22,179 nt of DNA from a virus. Made by a program: the position numbers and the translations under genes. This document shows, in pieces, positions 9,890-22,099 of the stretch. Where the stretch lies: the IMG/VR virus record IMGVR_UViG_3300033156_000961, positions 1 to 22,179 of that record; one strand, given 5' to 3'. The notes under the pieces were generated by a model, which saw only the letters and a program-made list of their open reading frames with translations, made no database searches and had not been told where the DNA came from. Within the stretch, counting starts at the first letter, position 1. Every line of letters begins with the position of its first letter.

Positions 9890-12800
9890 CTATAGTTTAT
9901 TAAAGAATTTCTTTTTTGATTCCTCTCTATATTTTTCTCTGCCAAATTTCTTAACTTTTGATGCCTTTGTTGGGTAGTTATATCCAATATCAGCGTGTTT
10001 TATACTATCCATTGGTTTTGGATTTTCGATTGCCTTCCAAACTTCCCATCTAGCTGTTTTATCTGGCCTCTTGAGACATTTTATGATAAACCTGCCTTTT
10101 AATATCTTATCATCTTTAGTCTTGTCTGGATAGAAGAAATATTCATGACAATCATCTCTTGCAACTCCTGTTTTTACTTTACCTATATAGAAGCAGGACA
10201 TATATGCCCACTTATATGGATTTGACCCAACATCACCAGGTTCTATCCAGTATGAATATTCAGGCATATCTAGCTTCTCTATAAGTTTTGCTCCTTTTAA
10301 ATCTATAAGTGGTTCTTTTTCTTTACTCTTCTTTGTGATATCAACCTCTTTGGGTTCAGCACTTGGTTTTACTATTGCTAGACTATGTGCTACATTCATA
10401 ATACCACCAGCTGTCTTTCTATGAGCTCCTGTATACATTTTATAATAGTCTTGTATCGTATTATCAGTAAATACCCATTGTATAAGCATTTTTTCTCCTA
10501 CAGAGCATCTCATATCTGTATGAACGGAGTGGCCTTTAATAATATCAGCGAGGGATTTCTTACCTTTATCATAAGCATCCTTTTCTTCTTGTGTTATCCC
10601 TCTAATGTGATGTTGAAACCATATCCTTCCAGATTTTGGATTGATATATAGCTCTTTAGGAAGAGGCTCGTTGTCTTTAGCTATTGAATCATATATATCT
10701 TTGGGGATTTTACCACTTTCTACCCAGTTTTTTATATCATCTTTCTTTATCGATTTATTATTAATAATATTATCTATATTTAATCTTTCAATATCTAATT
10801 CTCTTATTCTAGATGCTAATTTAATAATCTCATTAGTTATCTCTTCTCTCTTTTTTAATAAAGATTTTGTGTCTATATCTAATTTATTTTCTCCTCTAAT
10901 GTGTCTCAATTCTTCTACTGGTATTCTCTTTGGCTCCATTAGAGATAGTTTATTAACCAAAGATACTGTATCTGTTTTATTTTTTTCTGGTATCAATTCC
11001 ATCACTCTTCCAATATAGAAAGAGTATCTTGGAAATTTCTCATTAACTGGATTATCATATCTAAGAAATTCCTCTCCAGCTATCCGTAGTATATCACCAA
11101 TATTAGCTTTAATATTAGTATTGTCTGTCTTACCCAGTACCATCTCATATTGTCCAGTTTTACCTATAGAATCTTTACCTCTATAGAATTTACCATCTGA
11201 TAATATTCCAACTGAGTGATACCAATCCTTTGTTTTCATTGACACTAACGCATCGTAATAGTCCTTATCAATATCAAGACCTATCCAATAATTATAAGTT
11301 CCTTTACTTCCTTTAACTAAATGTTTTTCTAGAACTCTTCCATCATATTCATGATAAATCTTAGCTTTTCCCCAACCATGATTTGTTGGAGCATCATATG
11401 GATGAGATAACAATTTTATCATTACACCCTCTGCTATAAACTTCGGTCTATCTATTTTATGATTTATAATATTATCTATGGCTTTATTTATACTAGATAT
11501 GTTAGATACTATATAGGCATCTGTCTTCTTATTATCGATATTAGTTGTAGTTCTTTCTATCCATATATGTTTAGATGATTTTATCCTTTGTAAATATTCT
11601 AATCTTTCGTGGAGAGGAAATGATCTGATATCTTCTCCATCATAGAATAGACAGTCAAATGCATATACATATGCATAGTCTTTTAATTCTTCTGGTGATA
11701 TCTTCTTTGCATTTAATAATGAGTTAGCTACAGTTCTATGAAGTATTTCTTTTCCATCCTTATCTAGTGCTATGAATTCTCCATCTATAATTGTATTCGG
11801 TGGAAGTAATTCTTTTAATTCTTTAATAATTTCTGGAAGTCTGGATGAAACATCTGGAGATTTTCCTTTTAATAATTCTGGATCTACATATACAAATGGC
11901 TCATCTCCAGACTTACCAAGAGTTATTCTAAGACCATCAGCCTTGATGTCTATAAGTAATTTTTCATTCAGCCATTTAGCATTCCTTAGTTCTTCATCTA
12001 TAGTTTCAAGTTGAAATCTATAGTAAGGTTTTGCTGTAGACCAATATTTCTTTTTAATCTTTGATTTAGTAACTATAATTTCTGATCTCTTTTTATCCCA
12101 ATCCTTTGCTTCATCATATGATTTTGGAGGATAAGATTTCATATACTTTTCAGATTCTTTATAGCATTTCCAATAAGAGGATTTTTTAGCCTTCTCTGGG
12201 TCCTTTCCAGTATATTCTCTATAGAGATTTTCATCAAAAGGTGGTATAATTGTGAAGTATACACTTCTAAGCACATCAACTAATTTAGCAAAGTATCTAT
12301 ATACTAAATCTAAAGTCCAATCTCCCCATTTCTCTCCTTTCTTTAGTTTTGGATAAGCTGAATTTCCTAAATATCTTAAATCTGCTATACATTCTCTCCA
12401 TCTCTCTTTAACATTTTTCATGTCAGAATCGATGCCTTCTCTTTTAAATTCATCTGGATGGAGTTTATTTTCTAATTTGCTTTTTAATGTGATTACAGAA
12501 TCTTCAGTCAATATCTTTCCATTATATTTAGATAATTCATTCTTAATATCTTTGATTTTATTTTCTAGACTTTTTCTAAGATTAGTCAAATATATTCTTT
12601 CTGGTTTTAATCTATCAGCTAGGTCTAATAATTCTTTAAATGTAGCTTTATGGTCATTTGGTTTTCTTTTATCGTATTCACCAACACCAATTATCCAGAT
12701 ACTTTCTTTTATTAAGTCTTGTTCATATTTACCTAGTCTATCAAATTCTGGTATAATAGATATCTTTTTGTTACGATATGATAATCTAATCCCGATTGCT

Positions 12801-13141
12801 GGCTTACCAACCATTGGTGGTATAGCCATAAAATTGAAGTGAACATGATATAAGTTTATTGATTCTGATATATGCTTGAAATTGCCTTTGAGATCGATAT
12901 TATCTAACACACCTTTAGATGATAAAACTGGTACATTTGGATATTTTTTAAGATAGTTCTTGAGATAGTGGAAATGATCCTCATCTGATTGAGTCACTAT
13001 AATATAATCAACTTTTTTGTCATATTTAACTGATGGATCTATCCAAATAGCATGTCCATCTATATCTAGTAATAAACTAAAATGTTTTTTATTAGGTGTA
13101 GTTAGTGAAGCTGATGTTCCTAATGAAATTATTTTAATCAT
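9890..13141 (-). CDS. Fusion: metallo-beta-lactamase fold + ATP-dependent DNA ligase + LigD phosphoesterase-like domain
   Basis: 1083 residues. (1) Residues 1-215: MBL fold (ISLGTSASLTTP; F-S-L-L-L-D-I-D-G). The usual H-x-H-x-D-H is Q51-S-D53-E-D55-H56, and the late T-H is T-N (L-T-N-L), so metal binding is altered. (2) Residues ~385-720: nucleotidyltransferase/OB core of ATP-dependent ligases: K400-A-D-G-L-R (AMP-accepting Lys), D-G-E 453-455, F-D-C-L-F-Y-D-G 495-502, E-G-V-M-I-K 571-576, W-G-K-A-K 590-594. All motifs are intact. (3) Residues ~760-800 coiled coil, then 835-1045: W-F-Q-H-H-I-R-G, H871-S-V-H874-T-D-M-R878 and I-Q-W-V-F, like the H-Y-D-F-R-L-E core of LigD 3'-phosphoesterase, with an insert. 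The ATG overlaps the upstream HIT gene (ATGA). Expected role: sealing or trimming DNA ends. The location inside the head genes is remarkable. Confidence 0.85.
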   Translation of the reverse strand: MIKIISLGTSASLTTPNKKHFSLLLDIDGHAIWIDPSVKYDKKVDYIIVTQSDEDHFHYLKNYLKKYPNVPVLSSKGVLDNIDLKGNFKHISESINLYHVHFNFMAIPPMVGKPAIGIRLSYRNKKISIIPEFDRLGKYEQDLIKESIWIIGVGEYDKRKPNDHKATFKELLDLADRLKPERIYLTNLRKSLENKIKDIKNELSKYNGKILTEDSVITLKSKLENKLHPDEFKREGIDSDMKNVKERWRECIADLRYLGNSAYPKLKKGEKWGDWTLDLVYRYFAKLVDVLRSVYFTIIPPFDENLYREYTGKDPEKAKKSSYWKCYKESEKYMKSYPPKSYDEAKDWDKKRSEIIVTKSKIKKKYWSTAKPYYRFQLETIDEELRNAKWLNEKLLIDIKADGLRITLGKSGDEPFVYVDPELLKGKSPDVSSRLPEIIKELKELLPPNTIIDGEFIALDKDGKEILHRTVANSLLNAKKISPEELKDYAYVYAFDCLFYDGEDIRSFPLHERLEYLQRIKSSKHIWIERTTTNIDNKKTDAYIVSNISSINKAIDNIINHKIDRPKFIAEGVMIKLLSHPYDAPTNHGWGKAKIYHEYDGRVLEKHLVKGSKGTYNYWIGLDIDKDYYDALVSMKTKDWYHSVGILSDGKFYRGKDSIGKTGQYEMVLGKTDNTNIKANIGDILRIAGEEFLRYDNPVNEKFPRYSFYIGRVMELIPEKNKTDTVSLVNKLSLMEPKRIPVEELRHIRGENKLDIDTKSLLKKREEITNEIIKLASRIRELDIERLNIDNIINNKSIKKDDIKNWVESGKIPKDIYDSIAKDNEPLPKELYINPKSGRIWFQHHIRGITQEEKDAYDKGKKSLADIIKGHSVHTDMRCSVGEKMLIQWVFTDNTIQDYYKMYTGAHRKTAGGIMNVAHSLAIVKPSAEPKEVDITKKSKEKEPLIDLKGAKLIEKLDMPEYSYWIEPGDVGSNPYKWAYMSCFYIGKVKTGVARDDCHEYFFYPDKTKDDKILKGRFIIKCLKRPDKTARWEVWKAIENPKPMDSIKHADIGYNYPTKASKVKKFGREKYREESKKKFFNKL

Positions 13142-18872: not shown

Positions 18873-19397
18873 ATGTGTGAAAAAATCAACATAACGGAAA
18901 TAAAGGAAATTGATGAAACCTATCTCAAGATAGATAGGCTATTACAAGAAAATAAAGAAATAGAAAAACCAACATTCGATGAGAAAGAATGTTGCGTTTT
19001 AAATACAAAAAATATAATAAAAATCTTACAATTATTCGGAAATAAAAGAATACTTGTAAGATACGGTATAGCATTTTTCAGGAGTAACAGTTATTGGAAA
19101 GTAAACTTATGTAATACTGAAAAATTACCTGACTACTTAAAGAAAAATCGGAAATCATTACACAGATTAGTTTATACAGTATATTACGGTTATCCTAAAG
19201 GTATTACTTCAAAAGACTTTGAAATCCATCACATGTGTAGAAATCCAGAATGCTTAAACCCATTACATCTGATAGCTATACCAAAAGATAAACATAAAGA
19301 AGTTGAATATCTAAACCAAAAACTCCTAAAAGAAGGTAAAACCTTTCAAGAGATAAGGTTTATCATAAGGAAAAAATTGAATAAAGGGGAAATCTAA
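18873..19397 (+). CDS. HNH homing-endonuclease-like protein (HNH_3 type, 174 aa)
   Basis: An N-terminal ~85 residues, partly charged helix, precede an HNH_3 core: L-H-R-L-V-Y-T-V-Y-Y-G near 97-107, F-E-I-H-H-M-C near 117-123, R-N-P-E-C-L-N-P-L-H-L near 124-134, then I-P-K-D-K-H. This is the 'H-R-[LV] ... D/I-H-H-x-C ... C-x-N-P-x-H-L' pattern of freestanding phage HNH nucleases. The C-terminal helix is basic (FIIRKKLNKGE). It stands alone on the plus strand between the structural and small-gene blocks, with its own strong promoter. Either a selfish nuclease or an early viral function is possible. Confidence 0.8.
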   Translation: MCEKINITEIKEIDETYLKIDRLLQENKEIEKPTFDEKECCVLNTKNIIKILQLFGNKRILVRYGIAFFRSNSYWKVNLCNTEKLPDYLKKNRKSLHRLVYTVYYGYPKGITSKDFEIHHMCRNPECLNPLHLIAIPKDKHKEVEYLNQKLLKEGKTFQEIRFIIRKKLNKGEI

Positions 19398-19435: not shown

Positions 19436-19570
19436 ATGAAAAAATATAAAAATGTAAAAATGGCGTTAAGATACGCCAAGAAAAATAACTTAAAGGTCTA
19501 TCGTGAAAGGGAGATCGCCCAAGATAAAAAAGGTAGACTATATTATAGAACAGTTTACCTTGTCTATTAA
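19436..19570 (+). CDS. Small basic protein (44 aa), unrecognised
   Basis: ATG 19436 follows AAGGAGATCG, a good ribosome site, 38 bases after the HNH stop, so the two are probably on one mRNA. Lys/Arg/Tyr-rich with no acidic patch: MKKYKNVKMALRYAKKNNLK, then R-E-R-E-I-A-Q-D-K-K-G-R-L-Y-Y-R-T-V-Y. Net charge is strongly positive, suggesting nucleic-acid binding; the second half could form a beta hairpin. A long T-run terminates behind it. Function unknown. Confidence 0.6.
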   Translation: MKKYKNVKMALRYAKKNNLKVYREREIAQDKKGRLYYRTVYLVY

Positions 19571-19585
19571 TCTTTTTTTTTTATT
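19571..19585 (+). terminator. Oligo-T terminator of the plus-strand pair of genes
   Basis: Immediately behind the TAA at 19568-19570 lies TC followed by an unbroken run of T and further T-rich sequence. Archaeal RNA polymerase terminates at such U-tracts without a hairpin. Confidence 0.6.
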
Positions 19586-19612: not shown

Positions 19613-19688
19613 ATTACGCATTACATTATCAATATTTTTATTTTTATATTTTTATATTAGTCTATAGAATGTTACGCCAATTATCCCC
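19613..19688. repeat. GTTACGC repeat pair 1 (between convergent genes)
   Basis: Copies ATTACGCATTACATTATC (19613-19630) and GTTACGCCAATTATCC (from 19671). Unlike the other pairs, these lie between the ends of convergent genes and have no start codon or clear TATA to their left, so promoter control is not their only possible role. Confidence 0.7.
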
Positions 19689-19749
19689 AGATTTTTATTT
19701 TAATGATTGGATAATAAAGATCCTATGATTTATATCAGCTGAAATATAT

Positions 19750-19758
19750 AAAAAAAAA
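19750..19758 (-). terminator. U-tract terminator of the 58-aa gene
   Basis: Nine A on the plus strand, read as nine U on the minus strand, begin three bases behind the stop at 19762. Confidence 0.55.
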
Positions 19759-19761
19759 TAT

Positions 19762-19938
19762 TTAGTTTATTAGCTTCAATACGTCGTCCATAGCTAATAA
19801 GAGTAATTCTCTATGTGTAAATCTTTTATCTATCTCTTTTAGCAGATCGTTTTTTGTTTTAATCAATCCTAGAATAACACATACAGATAGGTCTATTATT
19901 TCGTCTTTTAATTCCTTAGTGTAGTCATATTCATACAT
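19762..19938 (-). CDS. Small unrecognised early-type protein (58 aa)
   Basis: ATG 19938 follows GGAGTGA, and a TATATAAA box on the minus strand (about 19984-19991) sits 46-53 bases upstream. The product is helical: MYEYDYTKELKDEIIDLSVC, then V-I-L-G-L-I-K-T-K-N-D-L-L-K-E-I, ending L-L-L-L-A-M-D-D-V-L-K-L-I-N. No membrane or Cys-pair feature. The stop is followed within three bases by a nine-base U-tract (19750-19758). Its promoter-upstream region is a copy of that of the 117-residue gene to the right, which suggests a gene-family-like control unit. Function unknown. Confidence 0.65.
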   Translation of the reverse strand: MYEYDYTKELKDEIIDLSVCVILGLIKTKNDLLKEIDKRFTHRELLLLAMDDVLKLIN

Positions 19939-19982
19939 ATATTTTCACTCCTTTTATTCTATATATAATGTATATAATATAG

Positions 19983-20121
19983 GTTTATATAGTTTACGGC
20001 ATATTACGCATTTGATCCCTATGTTTTTATATTTGTTGAGGGATATTATTGCCAGATTTTTATTTCCAGATTTATATATATATTCTACAGATGAAATTCA
20101 GATTTACGCATATTATTCTGG
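19983..20121 (-). promoter_or_regulatory. Promoter with GCGTAAY repeat pair 2 (58-aa gene)
   Basis: On the minus strand: TGCGTAAT, four bases, CGTAAAC, TATATAAACC. The first element (20003-20018) begins 11 bases past the TATA end, so the two CGTAA words are about one helical turn apart, and the nearer one is where a BRE would lie. A second copy TTTACGCATATTATTC starts at 20103, 100 bp from the first. The section from TATA to about 20070 is a diverged duplicate of 20540-20637. Confidence 0.65.
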
Positions 20122-20154
20122 AGAAAATATATTAGAATTTAGATAATAATAGAG

Positions 20155-20164
20155 AAAAAAAAAA
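20155..20164 (-). terminator. U-tract terminator of the 117-aa gene
   Basis: Ten A on the plus strand abut the stop codon at 20165, read as ten U in the mRNA. Confidence 0.6.
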
Positions 20165-20518
20165 TTAAGAAATTACTTCTGCATCAGGGAACGTATCTAG
20201 GAATTCTTTTTTTATTTTTTCCCATCTTTCTTTAGTGATTTCCCTTAGGTCATCGTATTGTTTACGCCATTCTAAGATTTCCGTATCCGTATCGTCAATT
20301 TCAACGAAATTAACAAGTTTTAGCTTACCTTCCTGCTCTACCATCACTAAATCATCATTGTCAAATAATTCTCTTGTATCAGTAGATAGCATATATAACT
20401 TTCCTTTGAATTCTAGAAGTTTAAGAACTTCATGATAATTACCACCGTTATTATGACGGATATTAAATCCACAGTTACACGGTTCTCTTAATACTTCTAC
20501 TATTTTTATTTTTTCCAT
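20165..20518 (-). CDS. Unrecognised acidic small protein (117 aa)
   Basis: Start taken at ATG 20518, because GGTGAT lies four bases before it and an upstream GTG is part of that ribosome site. The N-terminal half looks beta-like (KIKIVEVLREPCNCGFNIRH, a C-N-C pair and an H-N-N-G-G turn, then L-L-E-F-K-G-K-L-Y-M-L), the second half is acidic and helical (EILEWRKQYDDLREITKERW). It has its own TATA box (20551-20560) and repeat pair, and a ten-base U-tract directly behind the stop. No known family is recognised; the small size and individual promoter suit an early host-takeover protein. Confidence 0.65.
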   Translation of the reverse strand: MEKIKIVEVLREPCNCGFNIRHNNGGNYHEVLKLLEFKGKLYMLSTDTRELFDNDDLVMVEQEGKLKLVNFVEIDDTDTEILEWRKQYDDLREITKERWEKIKKEFLDTFPDAEVIS

Positions 20519-20550
20519 CTTTATCACCTATTATATAGTATATAATACAG

Positions 20551-20684
20551 GTTTATATAGTTTATCCCACGTTACGCATTATATCGGATCATTTTTATAT
20601 TTATCGACAGATATTATTGTGCCAGATTTTTATTCTAGTTTTTTTATATATTTATAGAGATAGAATAGAGTTACGCATTTTATC
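20551..20684 (-). promoter_or_regulatory. Promoter with GCGTAAC repeat pair 3 (117-aa gene)
   Basis: Minus strand: TGCGTAAC, four bases, GATAAAC, TATATAAACC (20551-20578), 33-42 bases before ATG 20518. The second copy GTTACGCATTTTATC starts at 20670, 99 bp from the first. The intermediate sequence (A-T-A-T-T-A-T-T-G-x-G-C-C-A-G-A-T5) matches the interval of pair 2. Confidence 0.7.
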
Positions 20685-20754
20685 TAGATGACAGGATATT
20701 AATATTCCCCACACGGATATTTATCTAAAAATAAATATAAAAAAGAGAGAATAT

Positions 20755-20982
20755 TTAAATATAAATATTCTGAATATCATCGTTTTGTTTTTTATTTCGA
20801 TATTCGAATTCAATAAATCTGATTATCTCCCTCAACGTCATAAAGTTTTTCTCTTCATCAGTAAAAATACTATCTATATACGTTAACGCTTCGTCGTAGT
20901 CTATAAAGACGCCATATTTTAACTTGTCCACTATATCTTTTACTTTCGGAAACATCTTTTTGATTAATTCTTTCTCATTCAT
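20755..20982 (-). CDS. Unrecognised small helical acidic protein (75 aa)
   Basis: ATG 20982 is preceded by GGTGAT three bases upstream and by a TATA-like ATATAAATA (21013-21021). The sequence is helical and acidic: MNEKELIKKMFPKVKDIVDK, then Y-D-E-A-L-T-Y-I-D-S-I-F-T-D-E-E-K, and L-R-E-I-I-R-F-I-E-F-E-Y-R. No membrane, metal or catalytic motif. A U-tract follows about 11-16 bases behind the stop (20739-20744). One of five small genes each under a similar promoter; function unknown. Confidence 0.65.
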   Translation of the reverse strand: MNEKELIKKMFPKVKDIVDKLKYGVFIDYDEALTYIDSIFTDEEKNFMTLREIIRFIEFEYRNKKQNDDIQNIYI

Positions 20983-21012
20983 TTTATCACCATAATCAGA
21001 ATATATTATATA

Positions 21013-21087
21013 TATTTATATGTTTCGCCAAGTTACGCCTTTTATTCACAAATGGGAATATTAATGTATATGTGTTACTCATATTAT
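21013..21087 (-). promoter_or_regulatory. Promoter with GCGTAAC repeat pair 4 (75-aa gene)
   Basis: Minus strand: GGCGTAAC, four bases, CGAAAC, ATATAAATA. The first copy starts at 21032; a degenerate second copy GTTACTCATATTAT starts at 21074, 42 bp away. Confidence 0.6.
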
Positions 21088-21101
21088 AAAAGAATTATTA
21101 T

Positions 21102-21344
21102 TTAAAATGAAGAATTAATAACTGAAAAGAAGAACCTATATTTATTTTGAATTTTATATAATAATCCGATGATATCTTCTGTAAATTCTTTATTAAAAGT
21201 AATTGCTAAAATATTAGGATTATCATAAGATACCTGAGAAACACGTATATCTTTAACAAGACTTAGAATTTCATCTATAGACCTATAGATATCACTAATC
21301 TTATCTCCCATTTTATCCCATATTAAGACAGTTGAGGTATTCAT
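21102..21344 (-). CDS. Unrecognised small protein (80 aa)
   Basis: Start taken at ATG 21344; AGTGATAA is the ribosome site, so the GTG nine bases upstream is not a start. The first half is helical (MNTSTVLIWDKMGDKISDIY, then R-S-I-D-E-I-L-S-L-V-K-D-I), the second is beta/helix (N-I-L-A-I-T-F-N-K-E-F, then I-I-G-L-L-Y-K-I-Q-N-K-Y-R-F-F-F-S). An alpha-beta fold is likely; no known domain. TATA-like TATATATA lies at 21377-21384 with a repeat pair upstream. Function unknown. Confidence 0.63.
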   Translation of the reverse strand: MNTSTVLIWDKMGDKISDIYRSIDEILSLVKDIRVSQVSYDNPNILAITFNKEFTEDIIGLLYKIQNKYRFFFSVINSSF

Positions 21345-21376
21345 ATTTATCACTATATTAGGTAATAAATTATATG

Positions 21377-21460
21377 TATATATAGTTTACGACAGGTTAC
21401 GCCTTTTATCCTGAGAGATTTATATTAATGAGGAGATGATAATCCTTACGCATTTTATTC
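21377..21460 (-). promoter_or_regulatory. Promoter with GCGTAAC repeat pair 5 (80-aa gene)
   Basis: Minus strand: AAAAGGCGTAAC, four bases, CGTAAAC, TATATATA; the clearest example of two CGTAA words one turn apart. Copies start at 21396 and 21445 (CTTACGCATTTTATTC), 49 bp apart. Confidence 0.7.
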
Positions 21461-21588
21461 CAATCTTAGAATAATATTAAATATATAAAAATATCCACTA
21501 TATAAAACTAAATATAAAAAAAGAAAAGAATTAATGAGAATTTCTTTTATGGAATTTTATAATAATATCCATAAGATAATGGGTTATT

Positions 21589-21981
21589 TTATCCATGTTT
21601 TAACTCCTGTTGTAATCTCTTAATGTGACTTTTGATGTATTCGTTTATTTTCTCTACTTGATTTACTGTTTTGTTTTTGTATTCTTTTTTCAATCTAGAT
21701 TTTAGGATTTTTATTCTATTCTTGATATTTTTTTCTCTTAGTCTTGGATGTTTTTCTAGTTGCTTATCTATAATGATATCCTTGATGGAATACGGCATAT
21801 ACCATTTCCTGTATGCTTGAATATTGTAGTCATTATAGAATTTCTCTATGTTACTAGACTTTATTTGATAAGGATTTTCCTTGTTGTATAGGATACCAAA
21901 TCGTTTTATACACTCAGTTGCCTTCATATTTCTTAGGATATCTGGGATATCCTTATATCCTTTTACATCTTTTTTATTCAT
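21589..21981 (-). CDS. Unrecognised basic helical protein (130 aa)
   Basis: ATG 21981 follows an AGAGGT ribosome site. The N-terminal ~75 residues have K-A-T-E-C-I-K-R-F-G-I-L and Y-R-K-W-Y-M-P-Y segments; the C-terminal ~50 are a Lys/Arg-rich coil (NIKNRIKILKSRLKKEYKNK, then E-Y-I-K-S-H-I-K-R-L-Q-Q-E-L). The charge suggests nucleic-acid contact, but no HTH or zinc site can be defined. About 66 bases behind the stop lies a seven-base U-tract (21516-21522). Own promoter and repeat pair on the right. Function unknown. Confidence 0.65.
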   Translation of the reverse strand: MNKKDVKGYKDIPDILRNMKATECIKRFGILYNKENPYQIKSSNIEKFYNDYNIQAYRKWYMPYSIKDIIIDKQLEKHPRLREKNIKNRIKILKSRLKKEYKNKTVNQVEKINEYIKSHIKRLQQELKHG

Positions 21982-22025
21982 ATTCTTTTACCTCTTTTAT
22001 TTCTAGTATTTGTAATGTATTATAT

Positions 22026-22099
22026 CTATATAATACTTTCGACACGTTACGCCTTTTATTCTAGGATTGGGATATTAATATGGTTACGCATTTAATCGG
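22026..22099 (-). promoter_or_regulatory. Promoter with GCGTAAC repeat pair 6 (130-aa gene)
   Basis: Minus strand: GGCGTAAC, four bases, CGAAAG, TATTATATAG. The CGAAAG here equals the BRE of the plus-strand HNH promoter. Copies start at 22046 and 22083 (GTTACGCATTTAATCGG), 37 bp apart. The remaining 80 bases to the window edge hold no visible gene. Confidence 0.65.

Follow-up and report, generated by a model that had tools for sequence, protein, structure and literature searches.

Oriented tandem copies of a virus-specific word as candidate operators of a small-gene block in a putative archaeal head-tailed virus

The window analyzed here, a whole IMG/VR virus record of 22,179 bases (IMGVR_UViG_3300033156_000961), carries 12 copies of a short element, ATAAAAKGCGTAAC in the coding sense, which are distributed in a single orientation over six spacers between 19.6 and 22.1 kb. 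We propose tentatively, and at a little under an even chance, that these copies are tandem, oriented operators of one virus-specific regulator, which would act as a joint switch, likelier a shut-off, for at least five small, separately transcribed, and probably early genes. The window encodes a terminase large subunit, a portal, and an HK97-type major head protein and is therefore assigned to a head-tailed virus, while its promoters, composed of a TFB recognition element (BRE) and a TATA box, indicate an archaeal host. The record looks like a fragment that ends shortly past the first element pair.

Element copies and promoter layout

An earlier note made from the letters of this DNA alone had listed 12 copies, and each of its coordinates was verified, with 12/12 on one strand. 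A search of the window with GTTACGCMTTTTAT at two mismatches or fewer returned 11 matches, all on the plus strand and all in 19671-22096, compared with 0.41 expected from shuffled sequences (maximum, 2). The 12th copy, at 19613, has three mismatches. Leave-one-out matrix scores of the 12 copies ranged from 11.7 (the copy at 19613) to 21.2, above the best nonmember in the whole window (10.3), and at a matrix threshold of 9 all matches in the window were noncoding. That none of the copies lies inside a gene, as the note had stated, was borne out by a count of zero in any open reading frame (ORF), in the structural block, and in the remaining 19.6 kb of the window. The genome-wide role (replication, partition, or nucleoid) that it had also raised is unsupported within the record because all copies sit in one 2.5-kb block. 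Spacing within the pairs is irregular (37, 42, 49, 58, 99, and 100 bp) and shows no helical phasing.

The block consists of five small same-strand genes, each behind its own spacer with BRE and TATA, a single-gene layout as read from the sequence. Its features are as follows.

22083-22096, minus strand: element copy, distal, ATTAAATGCGTAAC
22072-22079, minus strand: ATTAATAT box, start 27 bp upstream of the GCGTAAC of copy 22046
22046-22059, minus strand: element copy, proximal, ATAAAAGGCGTAAC, 10 bp before TATA
22028-22035, minus strand: TATA region TATTATAT of gene 21589-21981, with BRE CGAAAG upstream
21589-21981, minus strand: first small block gene seen here, 130 amino acids (aa)
21445-21458, minus strand: element copy, distal
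21422-21429, minus strand: ATTAATAT box of copy 21396
21396-21409, minus strand: element copy, proximal, 10 bp before TATA
21378-21385, minus strand: TATA region CTATATAT, with BRE CGTAAA upstream
21102-21347, minus strand: small gene, 81 aa, with the ORF opening at a GTG (21353)
21074-21087, minus strand: element copy, distal, GAGTAAC variant
21058-21065, minus strand: ATTAATAT box of copy 21032
21032-21045, minus strand: element copy, proximal, 10 bp before TATA region
21014-21021, minus strand: TATA region ATATAAAT, with BRE CGAAAC upstream
20755-20982, minus strand: small gene, 75 aa
20696-20703, minus strand: ATTAATAT box of copy 20670
20670-20683, minus strand: element copy, distal
20571-20584, minus strand: element copy, proximal, 10 bp before TATA
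20553-20560, minus strand: TATA region CTATATAA, with BRE GATAAA upstream
20165-20518, minus strand: small gene, 117 aa
20103-20116, minus strand: element copy, distal
20003-20016, minus strand: element copy, proximal, 10 bp before TATA
19985-19992, minus strand: TATA region CTATATAA, with BRE CGTAAA upstream
19762-19938, minus strand: last small block gene, 58 aa
19671-19684, minus strand: end set between convergent genes, copy 1, with weak TATA-like CTAATATA at +10
19613-19626, minus strand: end set, copy 2, degenerate, without TATA downstream
19437-19571, plus strand: ORF on the convergent side
18873-19397, plus strand: convergent HNH endonuclease gene adjoining the block

Exactly 10 bp separate each of the five proximal copies (20003, 20571, 21032, 21396, and 22046) from the TATA region that follows (5/5), which agrees with the five pairs described in the note as having one copy directly upstream of a TATA box, and all five block promoters (5/5) carry the shared word around the BRE/TATA core. 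Single TATA scores in the window are weak evidence, since the TATA matrix was built from 11 training sites and AT-rich background reaches 6.7 at the 95th percentile. The site also appears to have a second part. The octamer ATTAATAT starts exactly 27 bp upstream of GCGTAAC in 4 of the 12 window copies, and in 6 of the 12 when one mismatch is allowed.

The same note had placed a second CGTAA-like word of the element in the BRE position, and this part was not borne out. The BRE words at the five promoters are CGAAAG, CGTAAA, CGAAAC, GATAAA, and CGTAAA, and the proposed second word reads CGTAAAC in only 2/5 of them, the others being CGAAAC, CGAAAG, and GATAAAC. In the spacers of 26 related loci, the BRE words ACCGAAAG and ACCGAAGG rank with the most strongly enriched words, with 14 occurrences versus 1.1 expected (10 loci) and 9 versus 0.6 (9 loci), respectively, and BREs of the CCGAAA type are common across the related viruses. 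A second element copy in the BRE position is thus rejected, the sequence being the ordinary BRE of the virus group. The suggestion that a regulator bound here would meet TFB directly stands for the placement of the predicted regulator beside TFB and the BRE, but not for a second element word filling the BRE. This placement is well supported by the 10-bp spacing to TATA in 5/5 promoters together with the like layout in the related loci L053, L063, and L048/L055.

Related viruses with other words

Relatives were gathered from viral contigs by their terminase. In the first 12 terminase relatives found, the word of the window is absent, with isolated two-mismatch matches in two only, and the compound element gave no match when viral contigs were scanned for its exact pattern. 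The layout itself recurs with unrelated words in three related lineages. L053, whose terminase is 51% identical, uses the word AAGAGGAATG/A. Its small block genes are preceded by one to four copies each, and the proximal copy lies 12 bp before TATA at 4/4 promoters. A count over the whole 66.9-kb record gave eight exact copies, all within 1.8 kb, and three additional stretches of that record contained none. The L053 copies share the AT-rich box as well: the same octamer starts exactly 27 bp upstream of GAGGAATR in 8 of 12 copies, while the bases separating box and word have diverged. In L063 (terminase 47%), 11 exact copies of the word AGGCGGACCCC occupy 1.7 kb of 20.5 kb (whole-record count), the proximal copy lies 15 to 22 bp before TATA, and no ATTAATAT box is apparent in the flanks when inspected by eye rather than by script. 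The third lineage, L048/L055 (terminase 57%), has the word GCCGTCA, with tandem copies before ACCGAAAGG-TATATAAA, 15 to 16 bp before TATA. Its copies also occur just downstream of the TATA box, near the expected start site, and roughly a dozen form a dense one-way cluster (L048 1150-1395; L055 3170-3390).

Tandem same-strand copies thus abut BRE/TATA before small genes in the window and in all three of these lineages, and the flanking word varies among the viruses while the core BRE/TATA is alike. This suggests that each virus has a private switch for joint on/off control of these genes. A mechanical search for words at a fixed distance before TATA independently found the window, L053, L063, and L033/L035; it also returned words shared by three promoters in L011 (where the word is the BRE), L017, and L074. 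The promoter listing in 10 other loci showed no clear word by eye.

The sixth pair of the window lies between convergent genes, as originally described: copies 19613 and 19671 are flanked by the minus-strand gene 19762-19938 and by the plus-strand ORFs 18873-19397 (HNH) and 19437-19571. The block closes in the same manner in L053 and L063, where a set separates the final small gene from an HNH gene that converges on it, and L048/L055 have a comparable end cluster before an apparently convergent gene. In the window, L053, L063, L048, and L055, no good TATA follows the copy closest to the convergent gene, with scores of -1.4 to 1.6 versus 3.0 to 10.7 for promoters, a contrast that rests on L053 and L063. 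The absence of a TATA at this copy fits a site that blocks elongation rather than one that starts transcription.

The AT-rich loci L010, L011, L033, and L045 contain GC-rich spacer repeats (CCCGCCCCACA, CCCGTCCCACA, and AGTCCCACG, often with TGCTAACA nearby) at L010 4344-4650, 5494-5634, and 7294-7428, L011 225-1414, L033 9427-11674, and L045 2231-5081. They occur in both orientations, some as inverted pairs, and the words of close relatives are one base apart. These repeats were rejected as the same element because of their mixed orientation and because most of them are not near a TATA box. Palindromes were also seen: spacers of L033 carry five copies around AACGATCGTT, and those of L011 carry perfect palindromes of ACTACTACTACGTAGTAGT (L011 2407-2609; L033 10962-14754).

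A joint switch and other explanations

Under the proposed operator function, a regulator bound beside the BRE of each promoter would control the access of TFB and TBP. It might shut the genes off late in infection or silence them in a carrier or lysogenic state, and copies distant from promoters or at the convergent end of the block could stop stray transcription. The vicinity of the start site downstream of TATA is the usual position of repressors. Repression is preferred over activation because copies in L048/L055 lie near the expected start site, because the convergent-end sets have no nearby TATA, and because archaeal viral regulators of this kind have mostly been described as repressors (PMC5569661).

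Several observations weigh against a repressor encoded by the virus. The proximal copy in the window, L053, and L063 overlaps neither the BRE, the TATA box, nor the start site, and among archaeal regulators it is more typically the activators that have upstream sites at a fixed spacing. The 19671 copy is followed by the weak TATA-like CTAATATA at +10, which may be an antisense promoter, so that the end set is perhaps not fully promoterless. A gene for the regulator was not identified: none of the five block proteins of the window matched a Pfam or PHROG family, and neither RHH_1 nor TBP was detected in a set of 20 records, namely, the window and 19 relatives, most of which are fragments. The 130-aa protein has homologues in L010, L011, and L033 (49 to 57% identity) and a confident all-helical model (predicted local distance difference test score, 91). 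The model found no convincing match in the PDB, and the regulator role was therefore not assigned to this protein. For the 117-aa protein, relatives matched over short stretches only and were not used.

Among the relatives, block genes of L063 (6052-6336 and 7114-7407) and L053 (5532-5846) encode paralogous proteins of ~95 aa with a predicted four-strand-plus-helix fold, whose best structural matches are the single-stranded-DNA-binding proteins PUR-alpha and PC4 (Z, 5.0 to 6.9), below the level that proves kinship. In the distant terminase relative ANMV-1 (L085), a gene close to the terminase (9924-10517) bears the annotation TATA-box binding protein.

The main rival is activation, since the spacing to TATA in the window and L053 is rigid and the core promoter is left free. 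An activator of viral or host origin, positioned 10 bp before TATA, would recruit TFB and TBP so that the block fires together early, with the distal copies raising occupancy. The distances of 10 bp (5/5) in the window and 12 bp (4/4) in L053 speak for this, as does the precedent of Ptr2 and TFB-RF1, two well-studied archaeal activators that work through the recruitment of TBP and TFB (PMC5569661; PMC5937170). However, the spacing in L063 is loose (15 to 22 bp), the convergent-gene sets of four lineages have no good TATA after the last copy, and copies in L048/L055 lie downstream of TATA. We consider activation possible but rather unlikely.

It is improbable that the copies are sites of a host regulator or chromatin protein, with the word varying as hosts differ. 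In one looser set of relatives, the words of close kin (terminase 72 to 90% identity) are nearly alike (CGCCCCAC in L010, CGTCCCAC in L011, and AGTCCCACG in L033) and change beyond them, which this explanation would accommodate, and the searches for a viral regulator found none. Such a regulator may, though, lie outside the virus records, which are fragments. In genome collections, the nearest match was a 4-kb scaffold binned to a Guaymas Thermoplasmata metagenome-assembled genome, the sole cellular genome with a near terminase relative. That genome has no element copy at one mismatch or fewer, which argues against a host site, although the scaffold may itself be viral and have been binned wrongly.

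A replication origin or partition (centromere) cluster of iterons is very unlikely. Tandem same-orientation repeats, and the dense clusters of L048 (1150-1395) and L055 (3170-3390) in particular, resemble iterons, but the copies stand in every spacer of a gene block at a fixed distance from TATA, their spacing within pairs is irregular (37 to 100 bp) and without helical phasing, and no replication initiator was recognized beside them, the neighbor genes belonging to no known family. Least probable of all is a by-product of cassette duplication, in which the block grew from spacer-plus-gene units recombining via repeated spacers and the words have no binding partner: five genes flanked by six sets, spacers 19964-20084 and 20532-20652 that are 72% alike over 121 nucleotides, and block genes unrelated to known families would suit it, but the surrounding sequence has diverged while word, orientation, ATTAATAT box, and distances were kept, and the layout is common to four lineages with different words.

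A few further features were noted in these records. Window positions 9890-13141 encode a protein of 1,083 aa that contains a DNA ligase domain (Pfam DNA_ligase_A_M) and whose N-terminal part, by eye, resembles a metallo-beta-lactamase fold. In L010, an intein-like sequence (STEACYDDKTETLTKNGWKRYSEL...) seems, also by eye, to split the portal gene (from 11709), and a gene of the L053 record (L086 5622-6839) resembles a DNA cytosine methyltransferase by its opening residues. A long (TTTG)n tetranucleotide repeat follows a block gene at L055 2866-2933 and is shorter in the near-identical L048.

Known systems and significance

The closest known kind is the early regulatory sequences of archaeal viruses, to which the window corresponds in sequence (PMC11065993). 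Rudiviruses, lipothrixviruses, bicaudaviruses, and fuselloviruses carry virus-specific sequences around the BRE/TATA of small single early genes (PMC11065993). The likeness extends to the small, single, and mostly unannotated genes and to a core promoter that is alike between viruses with flanks that differ. Unlike those viruses, the present ones are head-tailed, and they have a short asymmetric tandem word, accompanied by an AT box at a distance of 27 bp, on the upstream side of the BRE, in an array that closes with a further set before a convergent gene. The tandem bipartite layout with a convergent-end set is new relative to the described archaeal viruses.

The nearest archaeal regulator with tandem sites is F55 of SSV1, which binds them at several early promoters (PMC5569661). 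Its ATAGATAG repeats overlap the BRE and the start site, whereas the words here lie upstream of the BRE, 10 bp before TATA; F55 is a ribbon-helix-helix (RHH) protein, and no RHH gene was found in the window and 19 related records, mostly fragments. The GTC element of rudivirus promoters (Kessler 2004, as cited in PMC5569661) is likewise a virus-specific addition to a standard BRE/TATA promoter but, as that citation describes it, is a trinucleotide downstream of TATA rather than a tandem word upstream of the BRE.

Outside the archaea, the sites resemble the stoperators of Cluster A mycobacteriophages L5 and Bxb1, which are asymmetric sites of 13 to 14 bp in one orientation relative to transcription (PMC6550527, PMC9283540). 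Almost all stoperators share that orientation, some lie off promoters, and their consensus differs among related phages. They number 20 to 30 genome-wide and are mostly at nonpromoter positions, in contrast to the 12 copies in one 2.5-kb block here, half of which stand directly at archaeal promoters. At stoperators the bound repressor blocks elongation, a candidate mechanism for the window sites as well. A still bolder reading, which we regard as doubtful, is a new class of archaeal viral switch, in which a site of AT box, 27 bp, and word in oriented tandem copies would control initiation at the BRE and stop elongation before the convergent gene, the layout being kept and the word replaced as in immunity systems that diverge in specificity.

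Almost nothing is known about regulation in the head-tailed viruses of uncultured archaea, and a word present at each gene of an early-type block offers a direct route to a regulon and its regulator. Early regulatory sequences of Sulfolobales viruses have been used for the prediction of anti-defense genes (PMC11065993), and by analogy with other archaeal viruses the word could list candidate anti-defense genes here. As the word is replaced and the layout kept between lineages, the coevolution of regulator and site becomes testable from sequence alone.

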